DNA of 64,000 nucleotides, from NCBI GenBank assembly GCA_021811235.1, contig JAJZPG010000003.1, positions 5,192-69,191 on the forward strand. The letters run 5' to 3'. The notes below the pieces were generated by a model, which saw only the letters and a program-made list of their open reading frames with translations, was not told where the DNA came from and did no database searches. Both the position numbers and the translations under genes were made by a program. The DNA comes from Pseudomonadota bacterium (GTDB lineage Bacteria; Pseudomonadota; Gammaproteobacteria; Burkholderiales; Thiobacillaceae). Positions within the stretch are counted from its first letter, which is position 1; every line of letters begins with the position of its first letter. Shown here one piece after another: positions 9,056-40,468 of this stretch.

Positions 9056-9173
9056 GTTTTCGGTCCCGAATTCAGGTTTTTGTTCAAGTTCCGGTAACAA
9101 GTGCCGAAATGAAGGCAAGTGGCCGCCATGCGCGGCGCCCTATCACTTCAATATGAATAAGCAGGAGAATGCA

Positions 9174-9758: not shown

Positions 9759-9765
9759 CGCGTGC

Positions 9766-10795: not shown

Positions 10796-11573
10796 TCAAG
10801 CCGGCTTCACCCTGATCGAGATGATCATCGTCATCGCGATCACCGCCATCGTCGGTTCGATGGTGGCGGTGTTCCTGCGCGGGCCGATCGAAAGCTACGT
10901 GGCCCAGGACCGTCGCGCGCGTCTCGCCGATGCCGCCGACACTGCGCTGCGCCGCATGCAGCGCGACATCCGGCTGGCGCTGCCCAACAGCGTGCGGGTG
11001 ACGGATGCCGGCGGCGTGTTCTATCTGGAGTTTCTCGCTACCCGCAGCGGCGGGCGCTACCGCGCGCAGGGCGGGGGCGATATCCTCGATTTCACCCTGG
11101 CCGACAGCAGCTTCGACGTGCTCGGGCCCGCCATCGACATGCAGGCGGGCGACCGCATCGCGGTGTACAACCTCGGGATTGCCGGTGCCGACGCCTGGGC
11201 GGGAGACACGCTCGCTGCATACACGGGAACGGCCGGCGGCACGACCAGCATCGCCTTCGCCGCCAAGCAGTTTTCGCTGGCCTCGCCCGGCAGCCGTTTC
11301 CAGGTCGTCGAAGGCCCGGTGAGCTACGTGTGCGACCCGGCGAGCGGCACGCTGACGCGCTACTGGGGCTATGCCATCGCGGCGGCGCAGCCCACCACGT
11401 TCGCCGCCACCACGCCGCGCGCGCTGCTGGCCGATCGCGTCGGTTCCTGCCATTTCACCTACCAGCCCGGCGTCACCGAACGCGGCGGTCTGGTCAGCCT
11501 CACGCTCGAGCTCAGCCGGGACAACGAGCGCGTGCGTCTCTACGCCAGCACGCAGGTGGGCAACCAGCCATGA
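10779..11573 (+). CDS. mshO: MSHA minor pilin MshO (PilW/GspJ-like)
   Basis: A 264-residue prepilin. The leader MRRISDQAG precedes FTLIEMIIVIAITAIVGSMV with Glu5. The segment DTALRRMQRDIRLALPNSVR is the signature of MshO/GspJ-type proteins. Two cysteines near the C-terminus (SYVCDPASG and VGSCHFTY) could pair. It overlaps mshD by 17 bases and ends in an ATGA overlap with mshP. The predicted place is at the pilus tip, from the family and not from anything specific here. Confidence 0.9.
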   Translation: MRRISDQAGFTLIEMIIVIAITAIVGSMVAVFLRGPIESYVAQDRRARLADAADTALRRMQRDIRLALPNSVRVTDAGGVFYLEFLATRSGGRYRAQGGGDILDFTLADSSFDVLGPAIDMQAGDRIAVYNLGIAGADAWAGDTLAAYTGTAGGTTSIAFAAKQFSLASPGSRFQVVEGPVSYVCDPASGTLTRYWGYAIAAAQPTTFAATTPRALLADRVGSCHFTYQPGVTERGGLVSLTLELSRDNERVRLYASTQVGNQP

Positions 11574-12004
11574 AGCGCGCGGCGATTCGTTCCCTGCAAT
11601 CCGGCTTCGTGCTGCCGAGCGCGATCTTCCTGCTGGTCGTGCTGGCGGCGTTGGGCGCCTACATGACGTCGCTCTCGCGCACCAGCCACATCAGCAGCGC
11701 GCTCGACATCCAGGGTGGGCGCGCCTACCAGGCGGCGCGCGCCGGCATCGAATGGGCCGCCTGGCAGGTGGTCGACCCGCAGGGCCTGCAGCCGAGTCCG
11801 ACGCCGTGCCCGGCATCGCCCAGCACACTGACCCTCGGCGGTACGCTCACCGGCTTCACGGTGACGGTCGATTGCACCCGCACCCTCACGACCGACGGGC
11901 CGGACGCGGTCGCGCTCTACCGGATCGTGTCCACTGCGACGTCCGGCAGCCCCGGCGAGGTCGATTATGCCGAGCGGCAGATCCAGGCGAGTTTCGGAAA
12001 ATGA
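11570..12004 (+). CDS. mshP: MSHA minor pilin-like protein MshP
   Basis: A 144-residue protein with a prepilin-like N-terminus, QSGFVLPSAIFLLVVLAALG, followed by RAYQAARAGIEWAAWQV, the usual MshP/PilX-like helix. Position 5 after the Gly is Ser, not Glu; loss of Glu5 is usual for MshP/GspK-type tip pilins. It has a cysteine pair in the head (CPASP and VDCTR). Both ends overlap neighbours by ATGA. Confidence 0.88.
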   Translation: MKRAAIRSLQSGFVLPSAIFLLVVLAALGAYMTSLSRTSHISSALDIQGGRAYQAARAGIEWAAWQVVDPQGLQPSPTPCPASPSTLTLGGTLTGFTVTVDCTRTLTTDGPDAVALYRIVSTATSGSPGEVDYAERQIQASFGK

Positions 12005-15000
12005 ACGCAACAAACCCGGCCTGTTCTTCCGCCATGCGCCGAATTTCCGATCGCCACGAATGGAACTGGCTGGTCGCCCTGCTGCTGGGCGGCTTGCTAG
12101 GGATTGCACTGGCAAGCGGCCAGGCGCTGGCGGCAACCTATTCGAGCATGGCGACGGCCTCGAACTGGATCGACCCGGCGGCGCATACGCGCGTCACGTG
12201 GACGAGCGGGGCGTCATGTAGTTCGAGTTATGCGGGCGCGCCCGTCGACGACGACATCACGGCGCAGCTTCCCTTGGGGTTCACGTTCAATTTCGGCGGG
12301 GTGAACTACACGCAAGTGCAGATCATGAGCAACGGCCGGCTGCAGTTCAATAACGGATTCTGTGGTTACGGGACGCAGACGACCGGGCCGCCGCCGACCT
12401 ATCCTTACGCCTACCCCAGCGCCAATGTCGTCAGGACGATGCGCGTCTACGGCGTGGACCTCGATGCGACGCCGAGCGGTGCAGCCGGCGTCTGCCCGAC
12501 GTCGAGCTGCTACGTAAGCTATGCGACCATCGGAGCCGCGCCCAACCGCCGCTTTGTGGTGACATGGGTGAACGTCCCGGAATGGGGGGCGACGAGCCGT
12601 ACCGGAAGATTCAATCTGCAGGTCATCCTGGAAGAAGACACCCACGAATTCGTCTACCAGTTCGGCACGAGCAGCCATCCAACCGGCGGGTCCGCGCAGA
12701 TCGGCTGGCAGCTCACCACGACGGATTACGAGGTCTGGTCCACGCCCGTCGTTCCCCCTCCGGATTCCGCGGTGCGCTTCTTCCTGCCCGCGCCGGTCGC
12801 GGAGTTCCGCATGGACGAAGCCAGCTGGACCGGTGCAGGCAGTGTCGCCAACAGCACGTCGGGCGGCACCCACGGTTCGCCGGTGGGCGCGGCGCAGACC
12901 GTTCCGGGTGGCAAGATTTGTGCGGGGGGCAATATCCCGTCCAATTCCTCGACTGCCGCAATTGCGGCAGTCGACACGGGATACGACGTCGATAGCCAGA
13001 TCGGCAGCAGCGGCACGCTTTCCTTCTGGTACAAGAGCAACGGCGCCTGGAGCGGGGGAAGCAGCCAGGCCGCCCAACTGTTCGATGCCAGCGTCGCCAA
13101 CAACCGCTGGTTCTACCTGGCGAGACGGAACGGCAACGGCCGCCTGAGCTTCAACCTGACCGACAGCGCCAACAACAATTTCCAGATCGATACGGGCAAC
13201 AATGCATTTGCAGCCAATACCTGGGTACACATCGGCGTGACCTGGAAGCTCACGCCGGTCGAGGCCAGCAACCGGGTGCAGATTTTCGTCAACGGCGCGC
13301 TTTCTCGGTCCTCCGCAATTGGAACGACCCGGCCGTTGTCCAGCGCCATCGGCAGCCTTTATTTCGGAGACAACCGCAGCGGCTTCGTCACCAACCCGGG
13401 GACGGGAAACTCGGCCAATGGCGTGATCGACGAGGTCAGGATATACAACAGCGAAGTGACGAATGCGGTGATACAGCGCGACTACACCGCCACGCGCCCC
13501 TGTATTCCGGCATCCGTTCCGCCTTCGGGCTTCAATGCATTCGAGCCGGGCACAGCGGCCGGCAGCGTGAGCGGCGTGATCCGCACCAAGGTCGCGGCCA
13601 GCTCCTTCAACCTCGACATCGTCGCGCTGAAGGCCGGCGGAGCGGCAGTCGAGACCGCGTTCGCCGGCGACGTGAAGCTGGAGCTCGTCGATGCGTCGAG
13701 CGCCGCCAGCTGCAGCGCCTATCCGCTGATCCGCAGCCTGGGTGTGCTCGGCTTCGCTGCGGCGGACCAGGGGCGCAAGACCTTTGCCGGCATCAACGAA
13801 CCCGATGCCTGGCCCAACGCGCGCATTCGCATGAGCTATCCGGCGACTGGGACGCCGACGCTCGTCGCCTGTTCGACCGACAACTTCGCCATCCGTCCGG
13901 CGGCCTTCGCCAGCGTGGCGGTGAGTGACGCCGACAGCGTCAGCGCCGGGACCGCGCGCACGCTTTACAACACCGCGGCGAGCGGCGGCACCGTCCACAA
14001 GGCCGGCCGGCCGTTCCGCATCGCGGCGACGGCGGTCAATGCCGCCGGCATCGCCACCGCCAACTATGCCGGCAGCCCCGCCGGCAGCCCGACCGCCTGC
14101 GTGCTGCCGGCGGCCTGCACGCTCGGTGCGCTCGCCACCGGCACCTGGTCGGCAGCGGCCGGCACGGTGACGACGTCAGGCGCCAGCTATTCCGAAGTGG
14201 GCGCCTTTTCCATGCAGCTGACGGATGCCGGCTTTGCTGCAGTGGATGCCGCCGATGGTTCCACTGCAGCCGAGATGACGATCGAATCGGCTGCCTTCAA
14301 CGTCGGCCGCTTCGTCCCCGACCACTTCGAGCTGACGCCCGCCAGCGTGCCGCAGTTCAGGACCTTCAACGACACGGCCTGCGCCGCGCGCTCGTTCACC
14401 TATGCCGGCCAGCCTTTCGGCTATACGGTGCTGCCGCAGGCGACGATCACGGCGAAGAATGCCGCCGGCGCCACCACCCTCAACTACGCGGGCGCGCTGT
14501 GGAAGCTCGCGGTCGCCGACGCGACGCAGACCTATGCCGCCGCCACCGGCACACTCGACACCGGTTTGATAGGCGCGCCGACCGTGATCGAAACCGGCGG
14601 CGGCGCGGGGACGCTGACGGCGAACGTTGCCGATGTCGTCGCCTTTCTGCGCAGCACGCCGGTGGCGCCGTTCACCGCGGCCATCGACTTGTCGATGAGC
14701 GTGCGCGACGACGCCGAGAATGCGGTGGCCGGCAACGGCTTCATCGATACCGCGACGCCCGCCCTGTTCGCAGGCATTGCCTTCGATTCCGGCAATCAAA
14801 TCCGCTTCGGCCGGCTGGTGCTGGCCAATGCCCACGGCTCGGAGCTGTTGGCCCTGCCGGTGACGATCGAGACCCAGTACTGGAACGGCAGCCATTTCGT
14901 GCGCAATGTGGCGGACGCCTGCACCCAGCTGGCGGCGGGCCAGGTGGCGCTGGCCGGCTGGCGGCGCAACCTCGATGCCTGCGAGACTTCGGTGACGCTG

Positions 15001-15273
15001 TCCGGCCGCTTCAACGCGGGGCGGGGCAATCTCCGTTTCTCGCTACCCGGCGTGGGCAACAGCGGCAGCGTCGACCTCACCGTCAACCTGGGCGCCATTG
15101 CCAGCGGCAGCACCTGCGTGGGAGGCGTCGCGGCGGCCGCGGGTGCTGCCGCCCAGAGCTGGCTGCAGGGGCGCTGGACGGGCGTCGCCTACGACCAGAA
15201 CCCGACTGCGCGGGCGAGCTTTGGCCTGTATCGCGGCAGCAAGGCCTTGATTTATCTGCGTGAAATGTATTGA
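12001..15273 (+). CDS. mshQ: MSHA-associated adhesin-like protein MshQ with LamG-type domain
   Basis: A 1090-residue exported protein, the largest in the window. A signal-anchor-like segment at about residues 22-46 ends in ALAA. Residues ~50-250 form a beta-rich region with Cys pairs. Residues ~265-500 resemble a concanavalin A/LamG lectin-like fold (AEFRMDEASW, LSFWYKSNGAW, IDEVRIYNSEV). The remainder is the long C-terminal region typical of MshQ (DUF6701), with CSTDNFAIRP near residue 625. It probably sits at the pilus tip or cell surface and mediates attachment; its ligand is unknown. It starts in an ATGA overlap with mshP. Confidence 0.88.
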   Translation: MNATNPACSSAMRRISDRHEWNWLVALLLGGLLGIALASGQALAATYSSMATASNWIDPAAHTRVTWTSGASCSSSYAGAPVDDDITAQLPLGFTFNFGGVNYTQVQIMSNGRLQFNNGFCGYGTQTTGPPPTYPYAYPSANVVRTMRVYGVDLDATPSGAAGVCPTSSCYVSYATIGAAPNRRFVVTWVNVPEWGATSRTGRFNLQVILEEDTHEFVYQFGTSSHPTGGSAQIGWQLTTTDYEVWSTPVVPPPDSAVRFFLPAPVAEFRMDEASWTGAGSVANSTSGGTHGSPVGAAQTVPGGKICAGGNIPSNSSTAAIAAVDTGYDVDSQIGSSGTLSFWYKSNGAWSGGSSQAAQLFDASVANNRWFYLARRNGNGRLSFNLTDSANNNFQIDTGNNAFAANTWVHIGVTWKLTPVEASNRVQIFVNGALSRSSAIGTTRPLSSAIGSLYFGDNRSGFVTNPGTGNSANGVIDEVRIYNSEVTNAVIQRDYTATRPCIPASVPPSGFNAFEPGTAAGSVSGVIRTKVAASSFNLDIVALKAGGAAVETAFAGDVKLELVDASSAASCSAYPLIRSLGVLGFAAADQGRKTFAGINEPDAWPNARIRMSYPATGTPTLVACSTDNFAIRPAAFASVAVSDADSVSAGTARTLYNTAASGGTVHKAGRPFRIAATAVNAAGIATANYAGSPAGSPTACVLPAACTLGALATGTWSAAAGTVTTSGASYSEVGAFSMQLTDAGFAAVDAADGSTAAEMTIESAAFNVGRFVPDHFELTPASVPQFRTFNDTACAARSFTYAGQPFGYTVLPQATITAKNAAGATTLNYAGALWKLAVADATQTYAAATGTLDTGLIGAPTVIETGGGAGTLTANVADVVAFLRSTPVAPFTAAIDLSMSVRDDAENAVAGNGFIDTATPALFAGIAFDSGNQIRFGRLVLANAHGSELLALPVTIETQYWNGSHFVRNVADACTQLAAGQVALAGWRRNLDACETSVTLSGRFNAGRGNLRFSLPGVGNSGSVDLTVNLGAIASGSTCVGGVAAAAGAAAQSWLQGRWTGVAYDQNPTARASFGLYRGSKALIYLREMY

Positions 15274-15279
15274 AAGCCT

Positions 15280-15308
15280 TTGACAACAAAGGGTTGTTTG
15301 TTTAAGTT
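15280..15308 (+). promoter_or_regulatory. candidate sigma-70 promoter for the mshI-N half
   Basis: TTGACA at 15280-15285 is a perfect -35. TAAGTT at 15303-15308, 17 bases on, is a fair -10 (three of six). It lies in the only sizeable gap (59 bases) in the second part of the pilus locus. An imperfect ACAAC/GTTGT inverted repeat overlaps the -35. Confidence 0.5.
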
Positions 15309-15332
15309 CAGGAAAATTTTCAGGTCCGAACC

Positions 15333-16241
15333 ATGCGGTTTTTCCGTCGAGCAAGCGAGCAGGGGCTGACAGCGTATGTGCGACTGCCGGGGCGCATCGC
15401 GTACGCGCGCGTCGACCGCCGGGCGGCCGTGCCCAGGTTGCTTGCCGCAGGCGTGGTGCCGGTCAAGGACGACAACTGGGGCGACGCGTTCGCCAAACTG
15501 CACGGCAAGGGGCCGGTCAGCCTGGTGCTGCGCCCGGCCGATTACAAGCTGCGCCTCCTCGACGCGCCGAACGTGCCGGCCGATGAAGTCAAATCTGCCG
15601 TGCGCTGGCAGATCCAGGACATGCTCGATTTCCACGCCAACGACGGCACGGTGGACGTGCTGGCAGTCCCGCACCCGGAACACCTGACCCACGTCCGCCA
15701 GGTATTCGCGGTGGCGGCCAAGAACAGCCTGCTCGCCGAGGAGATGGCGCTCGCCGCCAACGCCGGCCTCAATCTCACCATCATCGACATCGTCGAAACC
15801 GCCCAGCGCAACCTGGTCGCCCGCCTGGAGACCCCGAAGCGCGCGCTGGCCGTGTTCTCGTTCATCGAAAGCGGCGGGCTACTGACGCTGACCCTCGACG
15901 GCGAACTGTGCATGGTGCGCACGCTGGGCGTGAACCAGGCGCTGCTGGAAAGCGGCGACCTCGACAGCGGGCTGGAGCGCCTGACGCTGGAAATCCAGCG
16001 CACCCTCGACCATTTCGACCGCCAGTTCGGCGGGATTCCGGTCGACCGCCTGCTGCTGGTGCCGATGGAACACGTCGGGCGCCTGCGCGAAGGGCTGGCC
16101 GGCAATCTGGCGCTGCCGGTCGACGTGCTCGACATCGCGGCCGCGCTGGACATTTCGGCCTGCCCCGACGCGGGCGCACTGCCCGCCGCCTGCTACCACG
16201 CCATCGGCGCGGCCCTGCGCATGGAAGACACCACGCCATGA
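15333..16241 (+). CDS. mshI: MSHA biogenesis protein MshI (PilM-like)
   Basis: A 302-residue cytoplasmic protein with the actin-like fold expected of PilM/GspL-N proteins. VKSAVRWQIQDMLDFHANDG, the conserved AVRWQI.. motif, lies near residues 88-107. Later stretches RTLGVNQALLESGD and TLDHFDRQFGG belong to the same fold. It normally forms the cytoplasmic ring of the alignment complex by binding the PilN-like tail. It is the first gene after the internal gap and overlaps the next gene by ATGA. Some MshI proteins include the PilN-like part; here that part is a separate gene. Confidence 0.85.
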   Translation: MRFFRRASEQGLTAYVRLPGRIAYARVDRRAAVPRLLAAGVVPVKDDNWGDAFAKLHGKGPVSLVLRPADYKLRLLDAPNVPADEVKSAVRWQIQDMLDFHANDGTVDVLAVPHPEHLTHVRQVFAVAAKNSLLAEEMALAANAGLNLTIIDIVETAQRNLVARLETPKRALAVFSFIESGGLLTLTLDGELCMVRTLGVNQALLESGDLDSGLERLTLEIQRTLDHFDRQFGGIPVDRLLLVPMEHVGRLREGLAGNLALPVDVLDIAAALDISACPDAGALPAACYHAIGAALRMEDTTP

Positions 16242-16891
16242 GCCAGCAGATCAACCTCGTCAATCCGCTGCTGCTGAAGAAGCGCTACGCCTTCGGGCTG
16301 CGCGAGATGGGCCTGGGGCTGGGCCTGATTGTCGCGGGTGCGCTGGCCTGGGGCGGGTATCTGAACTATCAGGCCGGCATGCTCGAAACCTTGGCGACCC
16401 GGCAGGAGGCCCGTCAGGCCAAGGCGCAGCAGGAACTCGACCGCCTCAACGCCGCGGCCAGCCGGCCGGCGAGCGCGCTGCTGAGCGAGCGTGCCAAGGC
16501 GATGCAGGCCCAGGTGGCGCAGCGCGAAGCGCTGCTGGCTTCGCTCGAACGCACCCTCGACACGACCTCGGCGGGGTTTGCCGCCCCCATGCGCGCGCTG
16601 GCGCACGGCAGCGTCGAGGGCGTCTGGCTGAATGGGTTCACCCTCGCGCCTGACTACGTCAAGCTGGAAGGATCGGCTCTGCAGGCCGGCTTGCTGACGG
16701 CCTACATCGACCGCCTCGGCAAGCAGGCGCCGTTTGCCGGCATGAGGTTTTCCGGCATGGAGGCAGAACTGGCGCAGCCCGCGGGCGAAAGCAAGGACGC
16801 GGCCGGCGGGCAGGCCGGACATATCGACTTCGCCCTCTATTCGGGCAGCCAGGACGCCGCGGCGGAAGGGGGTAAGCCCGATGGGCAGTGA
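16238..16891 (+). CDS. PilN-like MSHA biogenesis protein
   Basis: A 217-residue bitopic inner-membrane protein. The N-terminal tail MSQQINLVNPLLLKK matches the INLLP-type motif by which PilN binds PilM. A transmembrane helix follows at about 26-45, then a coiled coil to ~115 and a small periplasmic alpha/beta domain (GVWLNGFTLAPDYVKLEGSA). It overlaps mshI by ATGA and mshJ by 11 bases. It does the job carried by the C-terminal half of fused MshI proteins elsewhere. Confidence 0.82.
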   Translation: MSQQINLVNPLLLKKRYAFGLREMGLGLGLIVAGALAWGGYLNYQAGMLETLATRQEARQAKAQQELDRLNAAASRPASALLSERAKAMQAQVAQREALLASLERTLDTTSAGFAAPMRALAHGSVEGVWLNGFTLAPDYVKLEGSALQAGLLTAYIDRLGKQAPFAGMRFSGMEAELAQPAGESKDAAGGQAGHIDFALYSGSQDAAAEGGKPDGQ

Positions 16892-17537
16892 GAAATTGCG
16901 CCAGCTCGGCGAGCGCATCGGCATGATGAGCCTGCGCGAGCGCGTGTTCGTTTTCGTCGCCGTCGCCGTCGTCGCCCTGGCACTGGTCCAGGTCCTGCTG
17001 ATCGACGGCGGCCAGCAGCGCAGGCAGCGCGCCAACGAGCGCCTGCAGGCTGCCGACGCGGCGCTGGCGCAGATCGGGCAGCAACATCAGCTGCTTGCGG
17101 AACGGACGGGGCTGGACCCGGACCGGACGGCGCGCGAGGCGCTCGCCGCACAGGAGGCGAGACTGGCCGAGCTGGGCGCCGCGCTCGAAGCGCGCGAGCG
17201 TTCGCTGGTGCCGCCCGAGCGCATGCAGCAGGTGCTGAAGGAAGTGGTGCGGGGGCAGGACGGGGTGCGCGTCGTCGGCTTCAAGACCCTGAGCCCCCAG
17301 CCGGTTGCCCTCTCCGAAGGGGCGGACGCCATGCCGCCGGGGTTCTACCGGCATGGCTTCGAAATCACCGTGAGCGGTCCGTATGCCGGCCTTGTCGCCT
17401 ATCTCGAACGGCTGGAGTCGCTGCCGTGGCGTTTCACCTGGACCGAGGCGACGCTCGACGCCGCCACCCGCCCGGACCTGAAGCTGACCTTGACCGTGCA
17501 CACCCTGAGCCTGGAGGAAGCATGGCTGCGCGTATGA
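16881..17537 (+). CDS. mshJ: MSHA biogenesis protein MshJ (PilO/GspM-like)
   Basis: A 218-residue bitopic membrane protein. After LGERIGMMSLRERVFVF comes one transmembrane helix (about 21-42), then a coiled coil (about 45-115) and a periplasmic ferredoxin-like domain ending in SGPYAGLVAYLERLESLPWR, the usual PilO/GspM-type strand-helix. It should pair with the PilN-like protein in the alignment complex. It overlaps both neighbours. Confidence 0.85.
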   Translation: MGSEKLRQLGERIGMMSLRERVFVFVAVAVVALALVQVLLIDGGQQRRQRANERLQAADAALAQIGQQHQLLAERTGLDPDRTAREALAAQEARLAELGAALEARERSLVPPERMQQVLKEVVRGQDGVRVVGFKTLSPQPVALSEGADAMPPGFYRHGFEITVSGPYAGLVAYLERLESLPWRFTWTEATLDAATRPDLKLTLTVHTLSLEEAWLRV

Positions 17538-17851
17538 TGCAACGGGTTCTGCTGGTCGCGCTGCTTGCGGCACCGCTTGCGGCACGGGCCCTGACCGATC
17601 CGACTGCGCCGCCCGCAGCGCCGGGCGCCGCCGACGGGGCGTCCACCCCGGGCATCCCGCTCACGGGGATCAAGCGGGTTGCCGGGCGACGGATTGCGGT
17701 GATCGGGGGCAGGGAGATCGCCGAAGGCGGCCGCTACCAGGATGCGCGCGTGGTGCGCATCAGCGAAAGCGAAGTCGTGCTGCGCCGCGGCGGCGAGACG
17801 ACGGTGCTCAGGCTCTATCCGCAGGTCGAGAAGCGGCCGCGCGGCAAATAA
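17522..17851 (+). CDS. mshK: MSHA biogenesis protein MshK
   Basis: A 109-residue exported protein. The signal peptide ends about ARA, and the mature part begins LTDPTAPP, a motif shared by MshK and PilP-like lipoprotein/periplasmic partners of the secretin. The rest (GIKRVAGRRIAVIGGREIAEGG...) is the short beta domain of the family. It starts 16 bases inside mshJ; the ATG at 17534 is an alternative. It likely connects the inner-membrane complex to MshL. Confidence 0.8.
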   Translation: MAARMMQRVLLVALLAAPLAARALTDPTAPPAAPGAADGASTPGIPLTGIKRVAGRRIAVIGGREIAEGGRYQDARVVRISESEVVLRRGGETTVLRLYPQVEKRPRGK

Positions 17852-17870
17852 GAAACAGGAGACATTGCGG

Positions 17871-19535
17871 ATGATGAAGCGTTTCACCTTATTGCTTGCC
17901 GGGCCGCTCGTGCTGTCGGGCTGCGCGGCGACGCTGACGCCGCGCGAGACCCAGCAGGCGATCCGGCAGGAAGTCGCGCAGGCGGCCCAGCCGCAGCCGG
18001 CTGCGCAGCCGATGACCGAGGAGCAGGTACGTGCCGCACTGATGCCGCCGCTCAAGCTGGAGCTGCCCAAGACCGCCGCCGCCCCGGTGGAGCCGCGCTT
18101 CGACCTGGTGGTCAACGGCGCGCCGGCACAGGACGTGTTCATGGCGATCGTGTCGGGTACGCGCTACAGCATGCTGGTGCATCCCGAGGTGGGCGGAACG
18201 ATTTCCGCCAACCTCAAGAACGTCACCGTGCCCGAGGCGATGTCGTCGATCCGCGAGCTGTACGGCTACGACTACACGATCGAGGGGCGCCGCGTCATGG
18301 TGCAGCCGCTGACGCCGCAGACCCGCATCTTCAAGGTCAACTATCTCGCCGGCACGCGGTCCGGCGCGTCGGACACGCGGGTGATCTCCGGCTCCGTCAG
18401 CGCCGCCTCGGGCAGCGGCGGCACCGCCGGGAGCAGCGGCGGCAGCACACAGAAATCGCTGGAAACCAGCAAGATCAGCACTTCGCTCAACTCGGATTTC
18501 TGGGGCGAACTGAAGATGGCGCTCGACGCCATCGTCGGCGAATCGGGCAAGGTGATCCTGAGCCCGCAGTCCGGCGTCGTCGTAGTGAAGGCGCCGCCGC
18601 GCACCATGCGCGAAGTCGAGCGCTTCCTCAAGGCCACCGCGCTGGCGGTCGAACGCCAGGTCATGCTGGAGGCGAAGATCATCGAGGTGCAGCTGAAGGA
18701 CGGTTTCCAGACCGGGATCAACTGGTCGGTCCTGCACGACGGCCAGCACCAATACTCGTCCGGCGCGAACACCGGCAATTTCGACCTGGTGACGGCCGCC
18801 GCCACCGGCTCGCTGGCCGACGTGCTCGGCAGCGGCCTGCCCGCGGCCGCCGGCAGGTCGGACGGCATCTTCGGCCTCGCGTTCCAGACCAAGAGCTTCG
18901 CCGCGCTGATCAACTTCCTGGAAACCCAGGGCTCGGTGCATGTGTTGTCGAGTCCGCGCATCGCCGCGCTCAACAACCAGAAGGCGGTGCTCAGGGTCGG
19001 CACCGACGATTTCTTCGTGACCAACGTGTCGACCACCAGCAACACCGGCGGCGCCGGCACCACCACCACGCCGAGTGTGACCTTGCAGCCGTTCTTCTCC
19101 GGCATCGCGCTCGACGTCACGCCGCAGATCGACGAGAAGGGCCGCATCACCCTGCACGTGCGACCCTCGGTCAGCGTGGTGACGGAAAAGGTCAAGAACA
19201 TCGACGCCGGCGAAGCCGGCAAGCTGACATTGCCGCTCGCATCCAGCGCCGTGTCGGAAACCGACAGCATCGTGCAGGTGGAAGACGGCCGCATCGTCGC
19301 CATCGGCGGCATGATGAAGCAGTCCTTCGACGGCAGCGCCAACCGCGTGCCCGGGATCGGCAGCGTGCCGCTGCTGGGCTACTTCTTCGGCAACACCAAC
19401 CGCAGCGCGGTGAAGAGCGAACTGGTGATCCTGATCAAACCCACCGTCATCGACAGCCAGGAGGATTGGCAGGCCGATGCCGAGGCCACCCGTGCACGCC
19501 TCGAACAATTCGAAGGTCGCCCACCGACGCCATGA
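17871..19535 (+). CDS. mshL: MSHA outer-membrane secretin MshL
   Basis: A 554-residue secretin lipoprotein. The signal peptide ends in a lipobox LSGC with Cys at residue 18. An STN/N0-type domain covers about residues 80-150 (YSMLVHPEVGGTISANLKNV), followed by a Ser/Gly-rich linker near 180-200. The secretin domain runs from ~260 to ~530, with VEDGRIVAIGGMMKQ and VPLLGYFFGN, the signature end motifs. AGGAG at 17858-17862 supports the start at 17871. It forms the channel through which the pilus leaves. It ends in an ATGA overlap with mshM. Confidence 0.94.
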   Translation: MMKRFTLLLAGPLVLSGCAATLTPRETQQAIRQEVAQAAQPQPAAQPMTEEQVRAALMPPLKLELPKTAAAPVEPRFDLVVNGAPAQDVFMAIVSGTRYSMLVHPEVGGTISANLKNVTVPEAMSSIRELYGYDYTIEGRRVMVQPLTPQTRIFKVNYLAGTRSGASDTRVISGSVSAASGSGGTAGSSGGSTQKSLETSKISTSLNSDFWGELKMALDAIVGESGKVILSPQSGVVVVKAPPRTMREVERFLKATALAVERQVMLEAKIIEVQLKDGFQTGINWSVLHDGQHQYSSGANTGNFDLVTAAATGSLADVLGSGLPAAAGRSDGIFGLAFQTKSFAALINFLETQGSVHVLSSPRIAALNNQKAVLRVGTDDFFVTNVSTTSNTGGAGTTTTPSVTLQPFFSGIALDVTPQIDEKGRITLHVRPSVSVVTEKVKNIDAGEAGKLTLPLASSAVSETDSIVQVEDGRIVAIGGMMKQSFDGSANRVPGIGSVPLLGYFFGNTNRSAVKSELVILIKPTVIDSQEDWQADAEATRARLEQFEGRPPTP

Positions 19536-20548
19536 CCGTCCTGGCGTTCCCCCGTCCCCGCGCTGCCAAGCCCCCGCGCCGCGTTGATCCGGAGGACGGG
19601 GGGCGGACACGATGGGCCGGTGCCGGCGGCGCGCTGTCCTATCTGGCGCATTTCGGATTGGCCGAGGCGCCTTTCGGCCTGACTCCGGATACCGATTTCT
19701 TCTTCGCCTCGCCGCCGCATCAGGAGGCGCTCAACACACTCCTCTACGCGCTGGAAAACGGCGAGGGCTTCATCAGGATCGTCGGCGCGGTCGGCACCGG
19801 CAAGACCCTGCTGTGCCGCACCCTGCTGGCTTCGCTTCCCCCGGCTTGCCGGGCGGCCTATCTCCCCAATCCCGCGCTCGATCCTGCCGGCATCCTGCTC
19901 GCGGTTGCGGAGGAGCTGGGCATCAGGCCGAAGGGCAACGAAAGCGACTACCGTCTGCACAAGGCCATCCAGTCGCGGCTGATCGCGCTGGCCCGGCGCG
20001 ATACCCAGGTGGTGCTGATCATCGACGAGGCGCAGGCGATGCCGGTGGAAAGCCTGGAAACGGTGCGCCTGCTGTCCAATCTGGAAACCGAGAAGCGCAA
20101 GCTGCTGACGATCGTCCTGTTCGGCCAGCCGGAACTCGATGCGCGGCTGGAGGCCGTTCCGCAACTGAAGACGCGGATCAGTTTTCATGACCGTTTGCGT
20201 CCGCTGACGCGCGACGAACTCGCCGCCTACCTGGTGCACCGTGTGGGCCGGGCGGGGCATGGCGGCAGCGAACCCTTGTTCAGTCCGCGCGCCGTCAGGC
20301 GTTTGCACGCCGCCAGTGCGGGCGTCCCGCGCGTCGCCAATGTCATCGCCCACAAGGCGCTCATGCTCGCTTACGGCAAAGGCCGGCGTCGTGTGGGCGG
20401 ACGCGAGATGCGCCTCGCCGCGCGCGATACCCTGGCGGCGAAGCCGGGTCAGTACGCGGCGCGATGGGGATGGATCGCGCTGGCCCTCCTCGCAGGCGTG
20501 CTGGCCGGCGGCAGCTTCCAGCTGCTCGGGGCAGGCCGGCTGTTTTGA
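19532..20548 (+). CDS. mshM: MSHA biogenesis ATPase MshM (ExeA-like)
   Basis: A 338-residue AAA ATPase of the ExeA/MshM type. The family start motif YLAHFGLAEAPFGLTPDTDFFF lies at about residues 38-59, Walker A GAVGTGKT at 85-92 and Walker B LIIDEAQ at 162-168. A single hydrophobic helix ends the protein (about 313-334). ExeA-like proteins help place secretins by working on peptidoglycan, but no peptidoglycan-binding domain is visible here. It overlaps mshL by ATGA. Confidence 0.9.
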   Translation: MTVLAFPRPRAAKPPRRVDPEDGGRTRWAGAGGALSYLAHFGLAEAPFGLTPDTDFFFASPPHQEALNTLLYALENGEGFIRIVGAVGTGKTLLCRTLLASLPPACRAAYLPNPALDPAGILLAVAEELGIRPKGNESDYRLHKAIQSRLIALARRDTQVVLIIDEAQAMPVESLETVRLLSNLETEKRKLLTIVLFGQPELDARLEAVPQLKTRISFHDRLRPLTRDELAAYLVHRVGRAGHGGSEPLFSPRAVRRLHAASAGVPRVANVIAHKALMLAYGKGRRRVGGREMRLAARDTLAAKPGQYAARWGWIALALLAGVLAGGSFQLLGAGRLF

Positions 20549-33823: not shown

Positions 33824-34369
33824 ATGACCCCGCACGAAGCACAACATTTGCTGGATGACGCCGAGTGCGTCGCGAGCGCGGAGACGGTGCAGACCGCGCT
33901 CGACCGGCTGGCGGGCGAGATCGCCACGGTACTGGCCGGCGAGTTTCCGCTGGTGCTGCCGGTGATGGGCGGGGCGGTGGTGTTTGCCGGCCAGCTCCTG
34001 CCGCGGCTGAATTTTCCGCTCGAATTCGACTACCTGCATGTGACGCGCTACCGCGACAAGACCCGGGGCGGAGACATGGAATGGCGGGTGCTGCCGGGCA
34101 AGAACGTGGCGGGTCGCACCGTGCTGGTGCTCGACGACATCCTGGACGAGGGCGAGACGCTGGCGGCGATCCGCGACAAGCTCGTGGAGATGGGGGCGGC
34201 GCGCGTGTGGTCGGCCGTGCTGACCGACAAGGCCAACGGCCTCGCCAAGCCGATCCGCGCCGATTTCGTCGGGCTGGACGTGCCGGATCGCTACGTGTTC
34301 GGCTGCGGCATGGACGCCTACGGTCTGTGGCGCAACCTGCCCGCAATCTATGCCTTGAAGGAAACATGA
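33824..34369 (+). CDS. hpt: hypoxanthine phosphoribosyltransferase
   Basis: A 181-residue type I phosphoribosyltransferase that turns hypoxanthine (and perhaps guanine) and PRPP into the nucleotide. LPVMGGAVVFAGQL is the pyrophosphate loop and VLVLDDILDEGETL the PRPP-binding motif near 108-121. FVGLDVPDRYVFGCGMD is typical of the family. It lies one base before the thioinosine phosphorylase gene, whose product would be its substrate, so the two form a salvage unit. Confidence 0.93.
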   Translation: MTPHEAQHLLDDAECVASAETVQTALDRLAGEIATVLAGEFPLVLPVMGGAVVFAGQLLPRLNFPLEFDYLHVTRYRDKTRGGDMEWRVLPGKNVAGRTVLVLDDILDEGETLAAIRDKLVEMGAARVWSAVLTDKANGLAKPIRADFVGLDVPDRYVFGCGMDAYGLWRNLPAIYALKET

Positions 34370-34370
34370 C

Positions 34371-35132
34371 ATGTTGGGAATCATCGGCGGCACCGGGCTG
34401 ACCCAGCTCGCCAATCTGGAAATCACGCATCGCAAGGTGGCGCGCACCCCCTGGGGCGAACCCTCGGGCGCGCTCACCTTCGGCCGCATCTGCGGACAGG
34501 AAGTGATCTTCCTGGCGCGCCACGGCTACGGCCACACCATTCCGCCGCACGAGGTGAACTACCGCGCCAACCTGTGGGCGCTGAAGGACCATGGCGTCGA
34601 CCGCGTGGTCTCGGTGGCGACCGTGGGCGGCATACACCGCGAACTGATCCCCGGCACCCTGGTCATTCCCGACCAGATCATCGACTACACGCACAGCCGG
34701 GGGGCCACGTATTTCGTACAGAGCGACAAACCGGTCACCCATCTCGATTTCACCTATCCCTACTGCGACGCCATGCGCGCCGCGCTGTTGCAGGCGGCGG
34801 CCAGCGCCGGCATCCGCCTGCGCGACGGCGGCGTCTACGGGGCCGTGCAGGGCCCGCGCCTGGAGACGGCCGCCGAGATCAACCGCATGGAGCGCGACGG
34901 TGCCGACATGGTCGGCATGACCGGCATGCCGGAAGCCTATCTGGCGCGCGAACTGGGGCTCTGCTATGCGACGGTGGGCGTCGTGGTGAATCATGCGGCG
35001 GGCCGCGGCCTGTCGGCCGACGGCATCCAGATGGGGGAGATCCAGGCGGTGGTGGGCGAGGTGATGCTGCAGGTGCGACATCTGCTCGAACAGCTGGTGA
35101 CCAACGACGCAGCCGGCCTGTGTACCTTCTGA
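34371..35132 (+). CDS. S-methyl-5'-thioinosine phosphorylase (MTAP/PNP family)
   Basis: A 253-residue trimeric purine nucleoside phosphorylase-family enzyme. It has MLGIIGGTGL at the start, LARHGYGHTIPPHEVNYRANLWAL, QGPRLETAAEI, and MVGMTGMPEAYLARELGLCYATV. Related enzymes in pseudomonads split methylthioinosine to hypoxanthine and methylthioribose-1-phosphate. The neighbour hpt fits that use, since it recycles hypoxanthine. The alternative is 5'-methylthioadenosine phosphorylase; the base specificity residue cannot be fixed without alignment. Confidence 0.88.
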   Translation: MLGIIGGTGLTQLANLEITHRKVARTPWGEPSGALTFGRICGQEVIFLARHGYGHTIPPHEVNYRANLWALKDHGVDRVVSVATVGGIHRELIPGTLVIPDQIIDYTHSRGATYFVQSDKPVTHLDFTYPYCDAMRAALLQAAASAGIRLRDGGVYGAVQGPRLETAAEINRMERDGADMVGMTGMPEAYLARELGLCYATVGVVVNHAAGRGLSADGIQMGEIQAVVGEVMLQVRHLLEQLVTNDAAGLCTF

Positions 35133-35154
35133 GCGTGTGCATGAAACGGACCCG

Positions 35155-35877
35155 ATGAAGCTCTATCGCGCCCTGCAGTCGCAGGGATTCGGCTCGCGCA
35201 AGGGATGCATGGCGCAGGTTCGGGCGGGCGCCGTCGCGGTCAATGGCACGGTCTGCGACGACCCCGAGGCCGAGGTCGATCCGGCGGGGCTGGAGCTGAC
35301 GCTCGACGGCGTCGCCTGGCGCTATCGCGAAAAGGCCTATGTGCTGATGCACAAGCCGGCCGGCTACGAGTGTTCGCATCATCCCAGCCACCATCCCAGC
35401 GTGTTCGGCCTGCTGCCGGGCCCCCTGCTGCAGCGCGGCGTGCAGTGCGTCGGGCGGCTCGACCAGGACACCACCGGCCTGCTGCTGTTCTCCGACGATG
35501 GCCAGTTCATCCATCGCATGATCTCGCCGAAAAAAGGCGTGGCCAAGGTCTATCTTGCACAGTGCGCCGAGCCGGTCACGGACGCCATGCTCGATGCCTT
35601 GCGCACGGGGGTGCAGCTCAACGACGAGCCGGCGCCGATCGCCGCGCTGGCGTGCGAGACCGTCGACCCGCACACGCTGCGGCTGACGCTGGCCGAGGGC
35701 AAGTACCACCAGGTCAAGCGCATGATCGCCGCGGCGGGCAACCGGGTCGATGCGCTGCATCGCGAGTCGGTCGGCGCGTTTGCCCTGCCGGCCGACCTGT
35801 CGCCCGGCAACTGGCGCTGGCTCGAGCCAGCTGAACTGCACCAACTGGAGCAAGCATGGCCATCCGCGAAGTCCTGA
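35155..35877 (+). CDS. rsuA: 16S rRNA pseudouridine-516 synthase RsuA
   Basis: A 240-residue RsuA-type pseudouridine synthase. An N-terminal S4 RNA-binding domain (about 1-50; [19 protein letters not shown]) precedes the catalytic domain with [14 protein letters not shown], whose Asp is the catalytic residue. [16 protein letters not shown] near 182 is the next conserved stretch. The start at 35155 (MKLYRAL) matches the family; an in-frame GTG at 35137 is less likely. It overlaps def by 22 bases. Confidence 0.92.
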
Positions 35878-36389
35878 AGATGGGCGATCCGCGCCTGCTG
35901 GCGCCGGCGCGGCCGGTGGAGGATTTTGCCTCGCTCGACCTGGCACAGCTGATCGTCGACATGCACGACACCATGCGCGCCCTCAACGGCGCCGGCCTGG
36001 CGGCGCCGCAGATCGGCGTCGGCCTGCAGGTGGTGATCTTCGAGGTGAACGCCAATCCGCGCTATCCGGACGTCGATCAGGTGCCGTTCACGGTGCTCGT
36101 CAATCCGGTGCTCACGCCCTTGTCGGACGTCATGGAAGAGGGGTGGGAGGGGTGCCTGTCGGTGCCCGGGATGCGCGGGCTGGTGCCGCGCCATGCCGCC
36201 TTGCGCTACCAGGGCTTCGATGCGGCAGGCCAGCCCATCGACCGCAGCGTGAGCGGCTTCCATGCCCGCGTGGTGCAGCACGAGGTCGATCATCTGCACG
36301 GCATCCTCTACCCGATGCGCATCCGCGACCTGCGCTATTTCGGCTTTACCGATACCCTGTTTCCGGGGCAGAACCTGCAGGACGATTGA
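35856..36389 (+). CDS. def: peptide deformylase
   Basis: A 177-residue iron/zinc peptide deformylase that removes formyl from nascent N-terminal Met. All three signature motifs are present: [10 protein letters not shown] (about 47-56), EGCLSVPG with the Cys ligand, and QHEVDHLHG with both His ligands and the catalytic Glu. The ATG lies inside rsuA. The fmt gene often found beside def is not here, so this may be a second or differently placed copy. Confidence 0.96.
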
Positions 36390-36427: not shown

Positions 36428-36454
36428 TAAAGTTGTCCTTGTCCGCGCCGCTAA
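36428..36454 (+). promoter_or_regulatory. sigma-28 (FliA)-type promoter
   Basis: TAAAGTTG (36428-36435), exactly 11 bases, then GCCGCTAA (36447-36454). Against the sigma-28 consensus TAAAGTTT-N11-GCCGATAA this is 14 of 16 with the right spacing. It lies 49 bases before the FlaF-like gene, in the 114-base gap after def. Confidence 0.75.
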
Positions 36455-36503
36455 CCTGTAGCGTAAACGTGGGCGAGGTGCCCACGCACCAGCAAGGACA
36501 ACA

Positions 36504-36887
36504 ATGAGCCCGGAACACCCGATCCTGCAGGCCCAACGCAGTATCCGTCATGCCGACGTGATGTTGGGCGAAGCCGCCCAGCTCGACGACATCGCCGCCC
36601 AGTTGATGGCGGTGCAGCGGCACTGGAACGACCCCAGCCGCGCACTTCGTCTGGCGGCCGCGCTGGAGGCCAGCCGCAGCGTCTGGCATGCGATCCAGGG
36701 CGCGCTGGCGCAGGGCGCCCTGCCGCTGCCGTCCGATGTGCAGCACAACCTGCTGATCCTCTCGGTCTACGCCGACAGCAAGATCGGCACGTGCGAGGCC
36801 AACCCCGATGCCGACACCCTCGGCAGCCTGATCGCCCTGACGCGCACGCTGGCGGGCAGTCTCAAGGAATGGAGGGAAGCGGCATGA
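36504..36887 (+). CDS. FlaF-like flagellin regulator/secretion protein
   Basis: A 127-residue soluble, all-helical protein. Its layout and pattern (RALRLAAALEASRSVWHAIQ, then LPLPSDVQHNLLILSVYADS and LGSLIALTRTLAGSLKEW) resemble FlaF of alphaproteobacteria, which helps flagellin secretion and regulation. The likeness is by eye and partial. AAGGA at 36494-36498, five bases before the ATG, supports this start. Its sigma-28-type promoter fits a late flagellar gene, though no other flagellar gene lies nearby. Confidence 0.65.
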   Translation: MSPEHPILQAQRSIRHADVMLGEAAQLDDIAAQLMAVQRHWNDPSRALRLAAALEASRSVWHAIQGALAQGALPLPSDVQHNLLILSVYADSKIGTCEANPDADTLGSLIALTRTLAGSLKEWREAA

Positions 36888-37108
36888 AGGCGCAGCGGAT
36901 TCCTGGGCGGGCTGTCGAAATCAGCCTGGCCGATGCGGCAGGCGTCACCTCCTCGGTGCGCCCCGGGCGCGGGCGCAATCGCGTCAAGACCGGACTGGAC
37001 GAAAAGATCAAGAAACCCGCCGAGGGCGTGCGCAAGAAAGCGCCGCCCGCCCGCAAGGCGCCGTCGCGCGGCCGCTACGTCGACGAGTACGCGCGTCCGG
37101 CCGTCTGA
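36884..37108 (+). CDS. small basic hypothetical protein
   Basis: A 74-residue very basic protein (Lys/Arg/Pro/Ala-rich middle, KKPAEGVRKKAPPARKAPSRG) with a short non-basic start and YVDEYARPAV at the end. No signal or membrane segment and no known family. GGAGGG lies upstream and the ATG overlaps the FlaF-like stop (ATGA), so it is made together with it and is under the same sigma-28-type promoter. It is likely disordered and could bind an acidic partner or nucleic acid; that is only a guess. Confidence 0.7.
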   Translation: MKAQRIPGRAVEISLADAAGVTSSVRPGRGRNRVKTGLDEKIKKPAEGVRKKAPPARKAPSRGRYVDEYARPAV

Positions 37109-37109
37109 A

Positions 37110-39662
37110 TCACTGCAAGGCGTCGCTGATATCCGTTTCCAGCGCCTCGCGTCCTGCGGGCGTCTGCAAGGCTCCGCCACGAATCAGGAACGTGTCTTCG
37201 ACGCGCTCGCCCAGCGTGTCGATCTTAGCGGCGTAGACCCCCACCCCGTGCCGCATCAGCACCTCGGCCACCGCAAACAGCAGCCCCCCCCGATCCGCAC
37301 AGGTGATCGACAGCATATGGCCGTGGCCTTGCGCATCGGCTTGCAGCCTTACCGTGGTCGGATAGGGATGGTGGCGCTGGTGGCGTGACAGGCGGCCGCG
37401 CGGGACCGGCTGCATCGGGCGCGCCGGGTCGAGATCGCGCGCCAGTTCGTGTTCCACGAAGCTCAGGAAATCGCGATAGTGGATGCCCCGGTTCGCCAGA
37501 TCCATCACCTGGAAGCTGTCCAGCGCGTAGCCGTGGCGGGTGGTGTGGATCTTGGCTTCGAGGATGGTGTACTGGATGCGCGCGAAGAAGCCGCAGATGC
37601 GGGCGAAGATGTCGGCGCGGTCGGGCGCGTAGACCAGCACCTGGATGCCTTCGCCCGCCGGCGACAGCCTGGCCCGCACGACGGCGTCGGCGCTCTCGGT
37701 GCGGCGCCACAGCATGCGTGCCTGCCAGGCCATGTCGCGGGCGTCGAAGCGGACGAAATAGCGTTCGTCGAGATGCTGCCACAGCGCATCTGCGGCATCG
37801 GCCGGCAATCCGTACAGGGCGAGGTTGACCCGCGCTTCGTTTTGCCTGGCGGCCATGTCGGCCTGCGCGGCGTCGCCGCCGGCCAGCCGGGCACGGGCGG
37901 CGTGGTACAGGTCTTCGAGCAGCTTGCCTTTCCAGGCATTCCAGACCTTCGGGCTGGTGCCGCGGATGTCGGCCACGGTCAGCAGATACAGCGCCGTCAG
38001 GCGGCGCACGTCGCCGACCCGCGCGGCGAAGGCGGCGATGACCTCGGGATCGCTGATGTCCTCCTTCTGCGAGGTGCGCGACATCACCAGATGCATGTCC
38101 ACCAGCCAGGCGACCAGCTCGCCGTCGGCCTTGTCGAGTCCGTGCTGCTTGCAGAAGCGCCGCGCATCGGCGGCGCCGAGTTCGGAATGGTCGCCGCCGC
38201 GCCCCTTGGCGATGTCGTGGAACAGCGCCGCCAGATACAGCAGCTGGGGCTTGTCGAAGGCGGCGATCAGCCGGCTGGCGAGCGGGAATTCGTGTGCCAG
38301 CTCGGGCACGGTGAAGCGCCGCATGTTGCGCAGCACGGTGAGGATGTGCTCATCCACGGTATAGACGTGGAACAGGTCGTGCTGCATCTGCCCGACGACA
38401 CGTCCGAACGCCGGGATGTAGCGCCCCAGCAGGCCGTAGCGATGCATCGCGCGCAGCGCGTGGGTGATGCCGACCGGCTGGCGCAGCAGCGTCATGAACA
38501 GGCTGCGGTGCAGCGGGTTGGCACGGAACGCGGCGTCGATGCGGGTGCTGCCGCGCCACAGCGCGCGCAGCGTGGTCGGTTCGAAACCGGCGATGCCCGG
38601 ATGCTGTGCGTAGACGATGAAGGCGCGCAGCAATGCGTCCGGCGCGCGCTCGAACAAGTCGGTCGTGCGCGCCTCGAGCAGGTTGGCGCGCAGCTGGAAG
38701 TCGGCGTCGATCGGGTGCGGCGGCGCGGTGACCGGAAACAGCCGCACGCGCAGCGACTGGATGAGGATGTCGTTGGCGCGCTGGATCAGCTTGGCGGCCC
38801 GGTAGTAGCCCTGCATCAGGCGTTCGCCGGCGCGGCGGTGGGGGGTGGCGGCCAGTCCCATGCGGGCGGCGAGTTCGGTCTGGTAGTCGAAGGCGAGGCG
38901 GTCCTCGCGGCGTCCGGCCAGCAGATGCAGGTGGATCCGCAGGGCCGACAGCGTGCGTTCCTCGCGCGCGATGCGGCGCGCTTCGGCGTGGGTGAGCAGG
39001 CCTGCGCGCGCGATGCCGCTCCAGCCGCCCTGGATGTCGCAGGCCTGCGCCAGCCAGTGGATCGTATGCAGATCGCGCAGCCCGCCGGGGCTGTCCTTCA
39101 GGTTGGGCTCGAGCTTGTAGGCGCTGTCGTCGAAGCGCGCGTGGCGCGCCTGCTGCTCGGCGAGCTTGCCGTCGAAGAAATGCTGGGCGTCGAAGCGGGC
39201 CTGGAAGCGGCGGCCGAATTCGTCGTACAGGCTGATGGCGCCCCACACCGGGCGCGCTTCCAGCAGATTGGTCTCCACCGTGATGTCGGCGTCGGCCTCG
39301 GTCAGGCAGGCACCGACCGTGCGCACGCTGTGGCCGATTTCCAGCCCGACGTCCCAGCACGCCTGTACCCACGTTTCCAGCGTGGCCTGCTGGTCGGGGG
39401 CGGGATCGTGCGGCAGCAGCAGCAACACGTCTACATCCGAGCCGGGGAACAATTCGCCCCGTCCGTAGCCCCCGACTGCAGCGAGGCAAAATTCCGCAGC
39501 CAGTCCGACGCGGACGCACAGTTCCGACAAGACGCCGTCGACCAGCGCCGCGTGGCGGGTCAGATAGGGGGAAGCGGACGGGTGTCTGAGATAGGCCGAC
39601 GCCAGCGCGGCGCGGCCCGATTTCAGTCGCTCGCGAAGATCGGCGAACGACGGGGTGCTCAC
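37110..39662 (-). CDS. glnD: bifunctional uridylyltransferase/uridylyl-removing enzyme GlnD
   Basis: An 850-residue nitrogen sensor that modifies the PII protein according to glutamine. An N-terminal nucleotidyltransferase domain (GGYGRGELFPGSDVDVLLLL, about 70-90) is followed by an HD hydrolase domain (YLAALFHDIAKGRGGDHSELG, near 470) and two C-terminal ACT domains that bind glutamine. The start is a GTG at 39662 overlapping the map stop (GTGA), so it is translated after map. It ends one base from the convergent small basic protein gene, with no terminator between. Confidence 0.95.
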   Translation of the reverse strand: MSTPSFADLRERLKSGRAALASAYLRHPSASPYLTRHAALVDGVLSELCVRVGLAAEFCLAAVGGYGRGELFPGSDVDVLLLLPHDPAPDQQATLETWVQACWDVGLEIGHSVRTVGACLTEADADITVETNLLEARPVWGAISLYDEFGRRFQARFDAQHFFDGKLAEQQARHARFDDSAYKLEPNLKDSPGGLRDLHTIHWLAQACDIQGGWSGIARAGLLTHAEARRIAREERTLSALRIHLHLLAGRREDRLAFDYQTELAARMGLAATPHRRAGERLMQGYYRAAKLIQRANDILIQSLRVRLFPVTAPPHPIDADFQLRANLLEARTTDLFERAPDALLRAFIVYAQHPGIAGFEPTTLRALWRGSTRIDAAFRANPLHRSLFMTLLRQPVGITHALRAMHRYGLLGRYIPAFGRVVGQMQHDLFHVYTVDEHILTVLRNMRRFTVPELAHEFPLASRLIAAFDKPQLLYLAALFHDIAKGRGGDHSELGAADARRFCKQHGLDKADGELVAWLVDMHLVMSRTSQKEDISDPEVIAAFAARVGDVRRLTALYLLTVADIRGTSPKVWNAWKGKLLEDLYHAARARLAGGDAAQADMAARQNEARVNLALYGLPADAADALWQHLDERYFVRFDARDMAWQARMLWRRTESADAVVRARLSPAGEGIQVLVYAPDRADIFARICGFFARIQYTILEAKIHTTRHGYALDSFQVMDLANRGIHYRDFLSFVEHELARDLDPARPMQPVPRGRLSRHQRHHPYPTTVRLQADAQGHGHMLSITCADRGGLLFAVAEVLMRHGVGVYAAKIDTLGERVEDTFLIRGGALQTPAGREALETDISDALQ

Positions 39663-40468
39663 GCGGCGTGGTGGATGCGGGCGGGCACGGCCGGGCTGCC
39701 GGCCGACACGGTCAGCACCTCGTAGCCGCTCTCGGTGACCAGCACGGTGTGTTCCCATTGCGCCGACAGGCTGCGGTCCTTGGTGACGATGGTCCAGCCG
39801 TCGGGCATCTGGCGGATGTCGCGCTTGCCGGCATTGATCATCGGCTCGATGGTGAAGGTCATGCCCGGCTCCAGCACGAGGCCGGTGCCGGGTTTGCCGT
39901 AGTGCAGCACCTGCGGGTCCTCGTGGAAGTTGAGCCCGATGCCGTGGCCGCAGAATTCGCGCACCACGCTGTAGCCGTGGTTCTCGGCGAAGCGCTGGAT
40001 GGCATGGCCGATGTCGCCCAGCCGCGCGCCCGGCTTGACGTGGTCGATGCCGACCCACATCGACTCGTAGGTGATCTGGATCAGCCGCTTGGCCTGGATC
40101 GAGGGCTCGCCGACCGCGAACATGCGGCTGGTGTCGCCGTGCCAGCCGTCCTTGATGACGGTGATGTCGAGATTCACGATGTCGCCGTTCTTCAGCACCT
40201 TGTCGCCCGGCACGCCGTGGCACACCTGGTTGTTGACCGAGGTGCAGATCGACTTGGGATAAGGCGTATGGCCGTTCGGCGCGTAGTTCAGCGGTGCCGG
40301 GACGGTGCCCTGCACGTTCACCATGTAGTCGTGGCACAGGCGGTCGAGTTCGCCGGTGGTGACGCCGGGCTTGACGAAGGGGGTGATGTAGTCGAGTACC
40401 TCCGAAGCGAGTCGGCCGGCTACGCGCATGCCTTCGATTTCAGCGCCGGTTTTGATGGTGACGGTCAT
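39659..40468 (-). CDS. map: type I methionine aminopeptidase
   Basis: A 269-residue cytoplasmic metalloenzyme that removes the initiator methionine. GCxG-like features are CGHGIGLNFHEDPQVLHYG near 168, with the metal Asp pair in VNLDITVIKDGWHGDTSRMF and the Glu ligands in TIEPMI and AQWEHTVLV. The length is normal. It heads map-glnD on the minus strand. In many proteobacteria it lies directly back-to-back with rpsB; here about 3.3 kb separate them. Confidence 0.96.
   Translation of the reverse strand: MTVTIKTGAEIEGMRVAGRLASEVLDYITPFVKPGVTTGELDRLCHDYMVNVQGTVPAPLNYAPNGHTPYPKSICTSVNNQVCHGVPGDKVLKNGDIVNLDITVIKDGWHGDTSRMFAVGEPSIQAKRLIQITYESMWVGIDHVKPGARLGDIGHAIQRFAENHGYSVVREFCGHGIGLNFHEDPQVLHYGKPGTGLVLEPGMTFTIEPMINAGKRDIRQMPDGWTIVTKDRSLSAQWEHTVLVTESGYEVLTVSAGSPAVPARIHHAA

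Follow-up and report, generated by a model that had tools for sequence, protein, structure and literature searches.

The flaF–X locus and its promoter

The window, by which we mean the whole 64-kb stretch of DNA analysed here, comes from a Thiobacillus genome of 2.85 Mb (63 contigs, 99.7% complete). On its forward strand it carries a sigma-28 (FliA) type promoter followed by two overlapping genes, flaF and a small gene referred to here as X. The promoter spans 36428–36454, with TAAAGTTG at 36428–36435, an 11-base spacer at 36436–36446 and GCCGCTAA at 36447–36454, and its predicted transcription start lies at about 36461. It agrees with the consensus TAAAGTTT-N11-GCCGATAA at 14 of 16 positions with the 11-base spacing and ends, as read from the sequence, 49 bases before the flaF start codon at 36504; match, spacing, distance and coordinates are all as the first-pass annotation of this DNA had described them. 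flaF (36504–36887, forward) encodes a divergent FlaF-family protein of 127 aa. Gene X (36884–37108, forward) encodes a very basic protein of 74 aa and overlaps flaF, as was also noted at first reading; the overlap is an ATGA. The leader between promoter and flaF start is conserved in an alignment of this region, together with the flaF ribosome-binding site AAGGA, read directly at 36494–36498 (forward). A possible leader hairpin, CGTGGGC-GAGGT-GCCCACG (36468–36486, forward), is weak: its pairs survive via G–U changes only, and the alignment contains no compensatory double changes that would give it covariation support.

In a whole-genome pattern search with 14 fixed bases and up to two mismatches allowed, the flaF promoter was the single exact match in the window’s genome, and in 10 Thiobacillus genomes the exact matches were flaF promoters only. 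Across 29 Thiobacillus genomes the information content per position is 1.97 bits in the first box and 1.95 in the second, compared with 0.76 for the spacer and 1.05 for the sequence upstream, and the promoter is therefore not a chance occurrence, a candidate explanation ruled out by box conservation and genome-wide uniqueness alike. With consensus boxes, 11-base spacing and conservation all present, the site qualifies as a sigma-28 promoter and is presumably read by that factor.

The 5′ flank of flaF is formed by hpt, mtap, an rsuA-type pseudouridine synthase gene and def (33824–36389, forward), and the 3′ flank by glnD and map (37110–40468, reverse), which converge on flaF–X, so that the gene order reads hpt-mtap-rsuA-def-flaF-X-glnD-map. 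Only X and housekeeping genes thus adjoin flaF, with neither flagellin nor flbT beside it. The earlier remark that no other flagellar gene lies nearby holds for the entire window, among whose predicted genes none was recognised. Elsewhere in the window (6084–20548), a cluster encoding a GspE/PilB-like ATPase, an inner-membrane protein, several prepilin-like proteins, a large surface protein and a secretin-like protein resembles, as far as a sequence reading goes, a type IV pilus or a type II secretion related pseudopilin system.

The FlaF-family protein and gene X

The resemblance of the 127-aa product to FlaF, suggested in the first-pass annotation, was borne out by an HMM search against Pfam PF07309 (41.6 bits, cut-off 23.6, positions 19–111 of 113). 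Against the NCBIfam equivalog NF009435 (flagellar biosynthesis regulator FlaF) it scored 36.4 bits, below the cut-off of 91, and we accordingly place the protein in the FlaF family by sequence while taking no functional equivalence to FlaF from that score. It is the only FlaF of the window’s genome, and of the 35 other genus members in the first survey 31 have one as well; relatives bearing the same gene are mostly Thiobacillus by name, and the culturable T. thioparus DSM 505 and T. denitrificans carry the locus. A profile–profile comparison of Thiobacillus FlaF with the FlaF of related genera gave an E-value of 6.8e-17 (31% identity, 101 columns). Most of the 35 residues that are invariant in those relatives, which possess flagellin-flbT-flaF loci, are replaced here, including the NQ, D-R and I-N-x-N positions. 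The N-terminus and the conserved motifs have diverged, and the core is near-invariant within Thiobacillus, where the median pairwise dN/dS of flaF is 0.25.

An AlphaFold2 model of FlaF is a four-helix bundle (mean pLDDT 84.8), whose best PDB matches are FliS structures, including flagellin–FliS complexes. The TM scores against 6gow_E are 0.66/0.75, and FliS matches reach 0.80 by target length, with weak E-values of which the best is only 0.04. In Caulobacter, FlaF is a flagellin secretion chaperone, which binds all flagellins and directs their secretion (PMC7591256). Taken together, the FliS-like model and the Caulobacter role point to a putative late-expressed, repurposed export chaperone that would be co-translated with X; chaperone activity of the Thiobacillus protein is thus suggested by model and by analogy.

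The product of gene X has no match in Pfam or NCBIfam. Of 29 genus members, 28 conserve the gene; in the remaining one, G008, bases are masked and the frame is changed at this point. Its C-terminus, RKAPxRGRYVDEYA, is nearly invariant, with the final RGRYVDEYA invariant, its N-terminus varies freely, and the ATGA coupling to flaF is kept. Near the start of X, several species have a 37-aa (111-bp) unit opening with MSHPARAPRSGIDGQTNAAQGRN that is present, in frame, one to three times, as seen in G027 (L007), G004 (L020), G017 (L025) and G035 (L016); this looks like a repeat spreading within coding sequence.

Origin of the locus

FlaF occurs in 14 of 399 genomes of the order, all of them in the window’s family or in one other family. 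The FlaF proteins of relatives (genera g34, g35, g37 and G055/G197) score 98–116 bits and, wherever the neighbourhood was read, are encoded in flagellin-(orf)-flbT-flaF loci, in which FlbT and flagellin were confirmed by Pfam; FlbT is absent from the window’s genome. In G176 the order is rnr-rlmB-hpt-mtap-def-flagellin-orf-flbT-flaF, with a sigma-28-like site (two mismatches) immediately 3′ of def and ahead of flagellin. In G090 it is hpt-mtap-flagellins-flbT-flaF, followed by sugar-synthesis-like genes and, at the far end, glnD-map, and here too a sigma-28-like site precedes flagellin. A sister genus (G277) has def-flaF-X-glnD as in Thiobacillus, with a weaker promoter, TAAAGACG-N11-GCCGCTAA. 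Flagellin and flbT are the genes missing at the locus in Thiobacillus and one sister genus, where promoter, flaF and X remain.

Because hpt and mtap, along with def in G176 and glnD-map in G090, are common to both kinds of locus, Thiobacillus flaF occupies the site of the old flagellin operon, and its position suggests that the flaF promoter may be the old flagellin promoter itself. Judged by sequence and gene order, flaF is what remains, in divergent form, of the alphaproteobacterial-type flagellin-flbT-flaF locus that is intact in sister genera, and not a new kind of factor. The first-pass annotation had proposed an undescribed pair of flagellin export or assembly factors; FlaF and sigma-28-type control survive from that proposal, but the locus descends from a known one, the ancestral flagellin is gone, and the pair is kept in genomes without flagellin (see below). 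No paper dealing with FlaF alongside FlbT in Betaproteobacteria came up in our literature searches.

As an observation on the related genera themselves, alphaproteobacterial-type flagellin-flbT-flaF modules are present in this betaproteobacterial order (L073, L213, L214, L215), most of them adjoining genes apparently for the synthesis of pseudaminic-acid-type sugars. Neither FliS nor FliD was recognised in the stretches of these modules that were read.

The canonical flagellum and the present-day flagellin

Elsewhere in its genome, the organism encodes flagellin, FliD, FliS, FliF, a complete set of rod genes and fliA, the last in two copies; the fliA and flagellin genes that the first-pass annotation had advised looking for are thus there, and it is well supported that a flagellate host has here a FlaF homologue controlled through a sigma-28-type promoter. 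The flagellin, 238 aa long, contains a Flagellin_N and a Flagellin_C domain, and FliD, FliS and FliT are encoded next to it. Its promoter in Thiobacillus is of a different type, TTAACTTT-N11-GACGATTC. Between this canonical system and G055, a carrier of FlaF-type flagellin, FlhA identity is 70%, which suggests, at the level of sequence comparison, that the export apparatus was retained in the Thiobacillus lineage and the filament module exchanged. Thiobacillus flagellins are, by species, either short (~240 aa) or long (>450 aa), both with a conserved leader and one shared unusual promoter of the type just given (L066 5598–6314; L034, L038, L040, L041, L044, L046, L047, L049 and L059–L063).

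The most conventional account of the pair would have FlaF act on the present FliC in the canonical flagellum, beside FliS, as an additional chaperone or as a translational regulator, with X assisting. The Caulobacter precedent of a protein that binds and directs all flagellins (PMC7591256), the FliS-like predicted fold, the flagellin and complete rod gene set of the genome and the sigma-28-type promoter ahead of flaF all agree with such a role. However, FliS is already present, the flagellin promoter is of the other type, most of the residues fixed among relatives with FlaF-type flagellin have been replaced, and three flagellin-less genomes keep flaF, X and the promoter. In this full form we regard the account as rather unlikely.

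A second flagellar export set

Two FliA genes are present in most Thiobacillus genomes. FliA2 is grouped with flhB2-flhA2-flhF2 between iron–sulphur and TCA-cycle genes, and a divergent cluster, fliF2-G2-H2-I2-J2-(orf)-O2-P2-Q2-R2, is flanked by a SixA-type phosphatase gene and dapA (further second-set loci: L092, L093 and L195). FliF2 turned up in the majority of genus members, including flagellum-less ones. No FliF2 was found in the window’s genome, and a complete lack of the second set there was considered; it was rejected, as flhB2-flhA2-flhF2-fliA2 lies on contig C61 (L064, 9813–15277) and the fliI2–fliR2 part on contig C15 (L190, 1–3580), where it ends at the contig edge. FlhB2 lacks the NPTH motif in all three genomes checked. 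Neither two FliA proteins in Thiobacillus nor a second, apparently rod-less export set was described in any source that our literature searches returned.

The recognition helix of FliA2 reads QLHSQA, as in other FliA proteins, and that of FliA1 QLHGQA, a difference that would fit the two promoter types, although the promoters concerned are few; FliA2 may be able to read the flaF promoter. A FliA tree did not place the origin of FliA2, and no other promoter of the flaF type was found at the second-system clusters. A separate candidate, in which the second system is itself a relic of the FlaF-type flagellum, was rejected because the FlhA of G055 is closer to system 1 (70% identity) than to system 2 (55%).

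Retention of flaF and X in genomes without flagella

Four Thiobacillus genomes (G003, G015, G028 and G035) have no Flagellin_N match and no rod-protein match, and FliA2 is their only FliA, an assignment supported by synteny; the second set therefore exists there without detectable rod, hook or filament. In G003, G028 and G035, flaF, X and the exact promoter are all still present. In G015 the promoter boxes stand 12 bases apart, X is intact, and flaF is reduced to an in-frame remnant of 42 residues. In G009, which is 75% complete, there are no matches to FliA, flagellin, rod proteins or FliF, def is followed directly by glnD, and both flaF and X are lost. The flagellum-less genomes are drafts; G018 and G021 were left out of this set as incomplete assemblies because canonical flhA and fliA1 sequence is present in them. 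Loss of flagella was recent in two of these genomes, G003 and G035, with dS to the nearest relative of 0.14 and 0.08, and the dN/dS of flaF between G035 and G006 is raised to 0.55. No species with system 1 and clearly without system 2 was found.

Since flaF persists where flagellin, rod and canonical FliA are gone, the present-day flagellin may not be the client of FlaF, and a strict tie of FlaF to flagellin is not supported. At the level of gene content, the pattern fits a link to the machinery of flagellar export, and not just to the filament, though it is not decisive.

A stronger version of this link would make FlaF and X exclusive to the second, apparently rod-less export set, with FliA2 transcribing their genes. 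FliA2 is the sole FliA in the four genomes above, three with the pair intact and the fourth with X and the boxes; the helix difference between FliA2 and FliA1 matches the two promoter types; and G009, devoid of both systems, has lost flaF and X. On the other hand, G015 has the second set and yet deleted flaF, which is therefore dispensable there, the second-system clusters show no other promoter of this type, FliA1 may read the flaF promoter as well, and two of the losses of flagella are recent. We consider an exclusive service to the second set doubtful. More improbable still is its furthest extension, that of a former filament chaperone in a non-flagellar secretion machine, where FlaF would be the dedicated chaperone, and X an exported or regulatory partner, of a flagellum-derived apparatus without rod, hook or filament and with its own FliA2.

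The pair might also be a fading remnant, functionless today and in the course of being lost. The locus is a demonstrable leftover, the N-terminus and conserved motifs of FlaF have diverged and the G015 copy is deleted, but boxes, FlaF core and X tail are near-invariant while spacer and X N-terminus vary freely, and the median dN/dS is 0.25. Such decay is very unlikely.

A repurposed chaperone pair as the favoured reading

The reading that we favour, with a probability of roughly 60%, is that flaF and X form a two-gene operon encoding a repurposed FlaF chaperone pair at the site of a lost flagellin-flbT-flaF locus. The common line of Thiobacillus and one sister genus would have lost the ancestral flagellin and flbT, the flagellin promoter, or an equivalent, would have ended up directly before flaF, and the small basic gene X would now follow it. 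The divergent FlaF, a predicted helical bundle, would act as a FliS-like chaperone expressed alongside the late flagellar genes; removed from its original flagellin, it would have been kept, together with X, for work with a flagellar-type export apparatus. This account draws on FlaF membership by profile, promoter conservation and a position common to the intact loci, and on the replacement of canonical FlaF residues and the keeping of flaF in flagellin-less genomes, all of which were seen here. The flaF remnant of G015, the recent losses of flagella, the G035–G006 dN/dS of 0.55, the weak FliS E-values and the service that FliS already gives to the current flagellin count against it. As for the client, the present FliC flagellin can be named only tentatively, and a substrate of the second apparatus with the same reserve; another client, or no remaining function, seems somewhat unlikely.

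The locus documents how a flagellar filament module was replaced: the export apparatus stays, the old flagellin and FlbT vanish, and the chaperone gene survives behind a flagellin-type promoter. It offers a direct test of how FlaF acts in the absence of its flagellin. A further point of note that it brings out is that Thiobacillus species conserve a second export set, apparently without a rod, that has a sigma-28 of its own.

Comparison with known systems

Set beside FliS, Thiobacillus FlaF has a predicted four-helix fold that may be of the FliS type, given structural matches with weak E-values; a sequence relation was not detected and a true FliS gene lies elsewhere in the genome. Compared with alphaproteobacterial FlaF (PF07309; Caulobacter crescentus), it scores above the curated family cut-off, is helical and has a flagellar-type promoter in a flagellate genome; it differs in its score below the NCBIfam equivalog cut-off, in the lack of adjoining flagellin and FlbT and of any FlbT in the genome, and in the replacement of most residues invariant in relatives’ FlaF. 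The nearest parallels are the loci of the related genera (g34, g35, g37 and G055/G197): whereas Thiobacillus has gene X there in place of flagellin and flbT, the two share a homologous FlaF, a chromosomal place (as seen in G090 and G176) and a sigma-28-like site, which in the relatives stands in front of flagellin.
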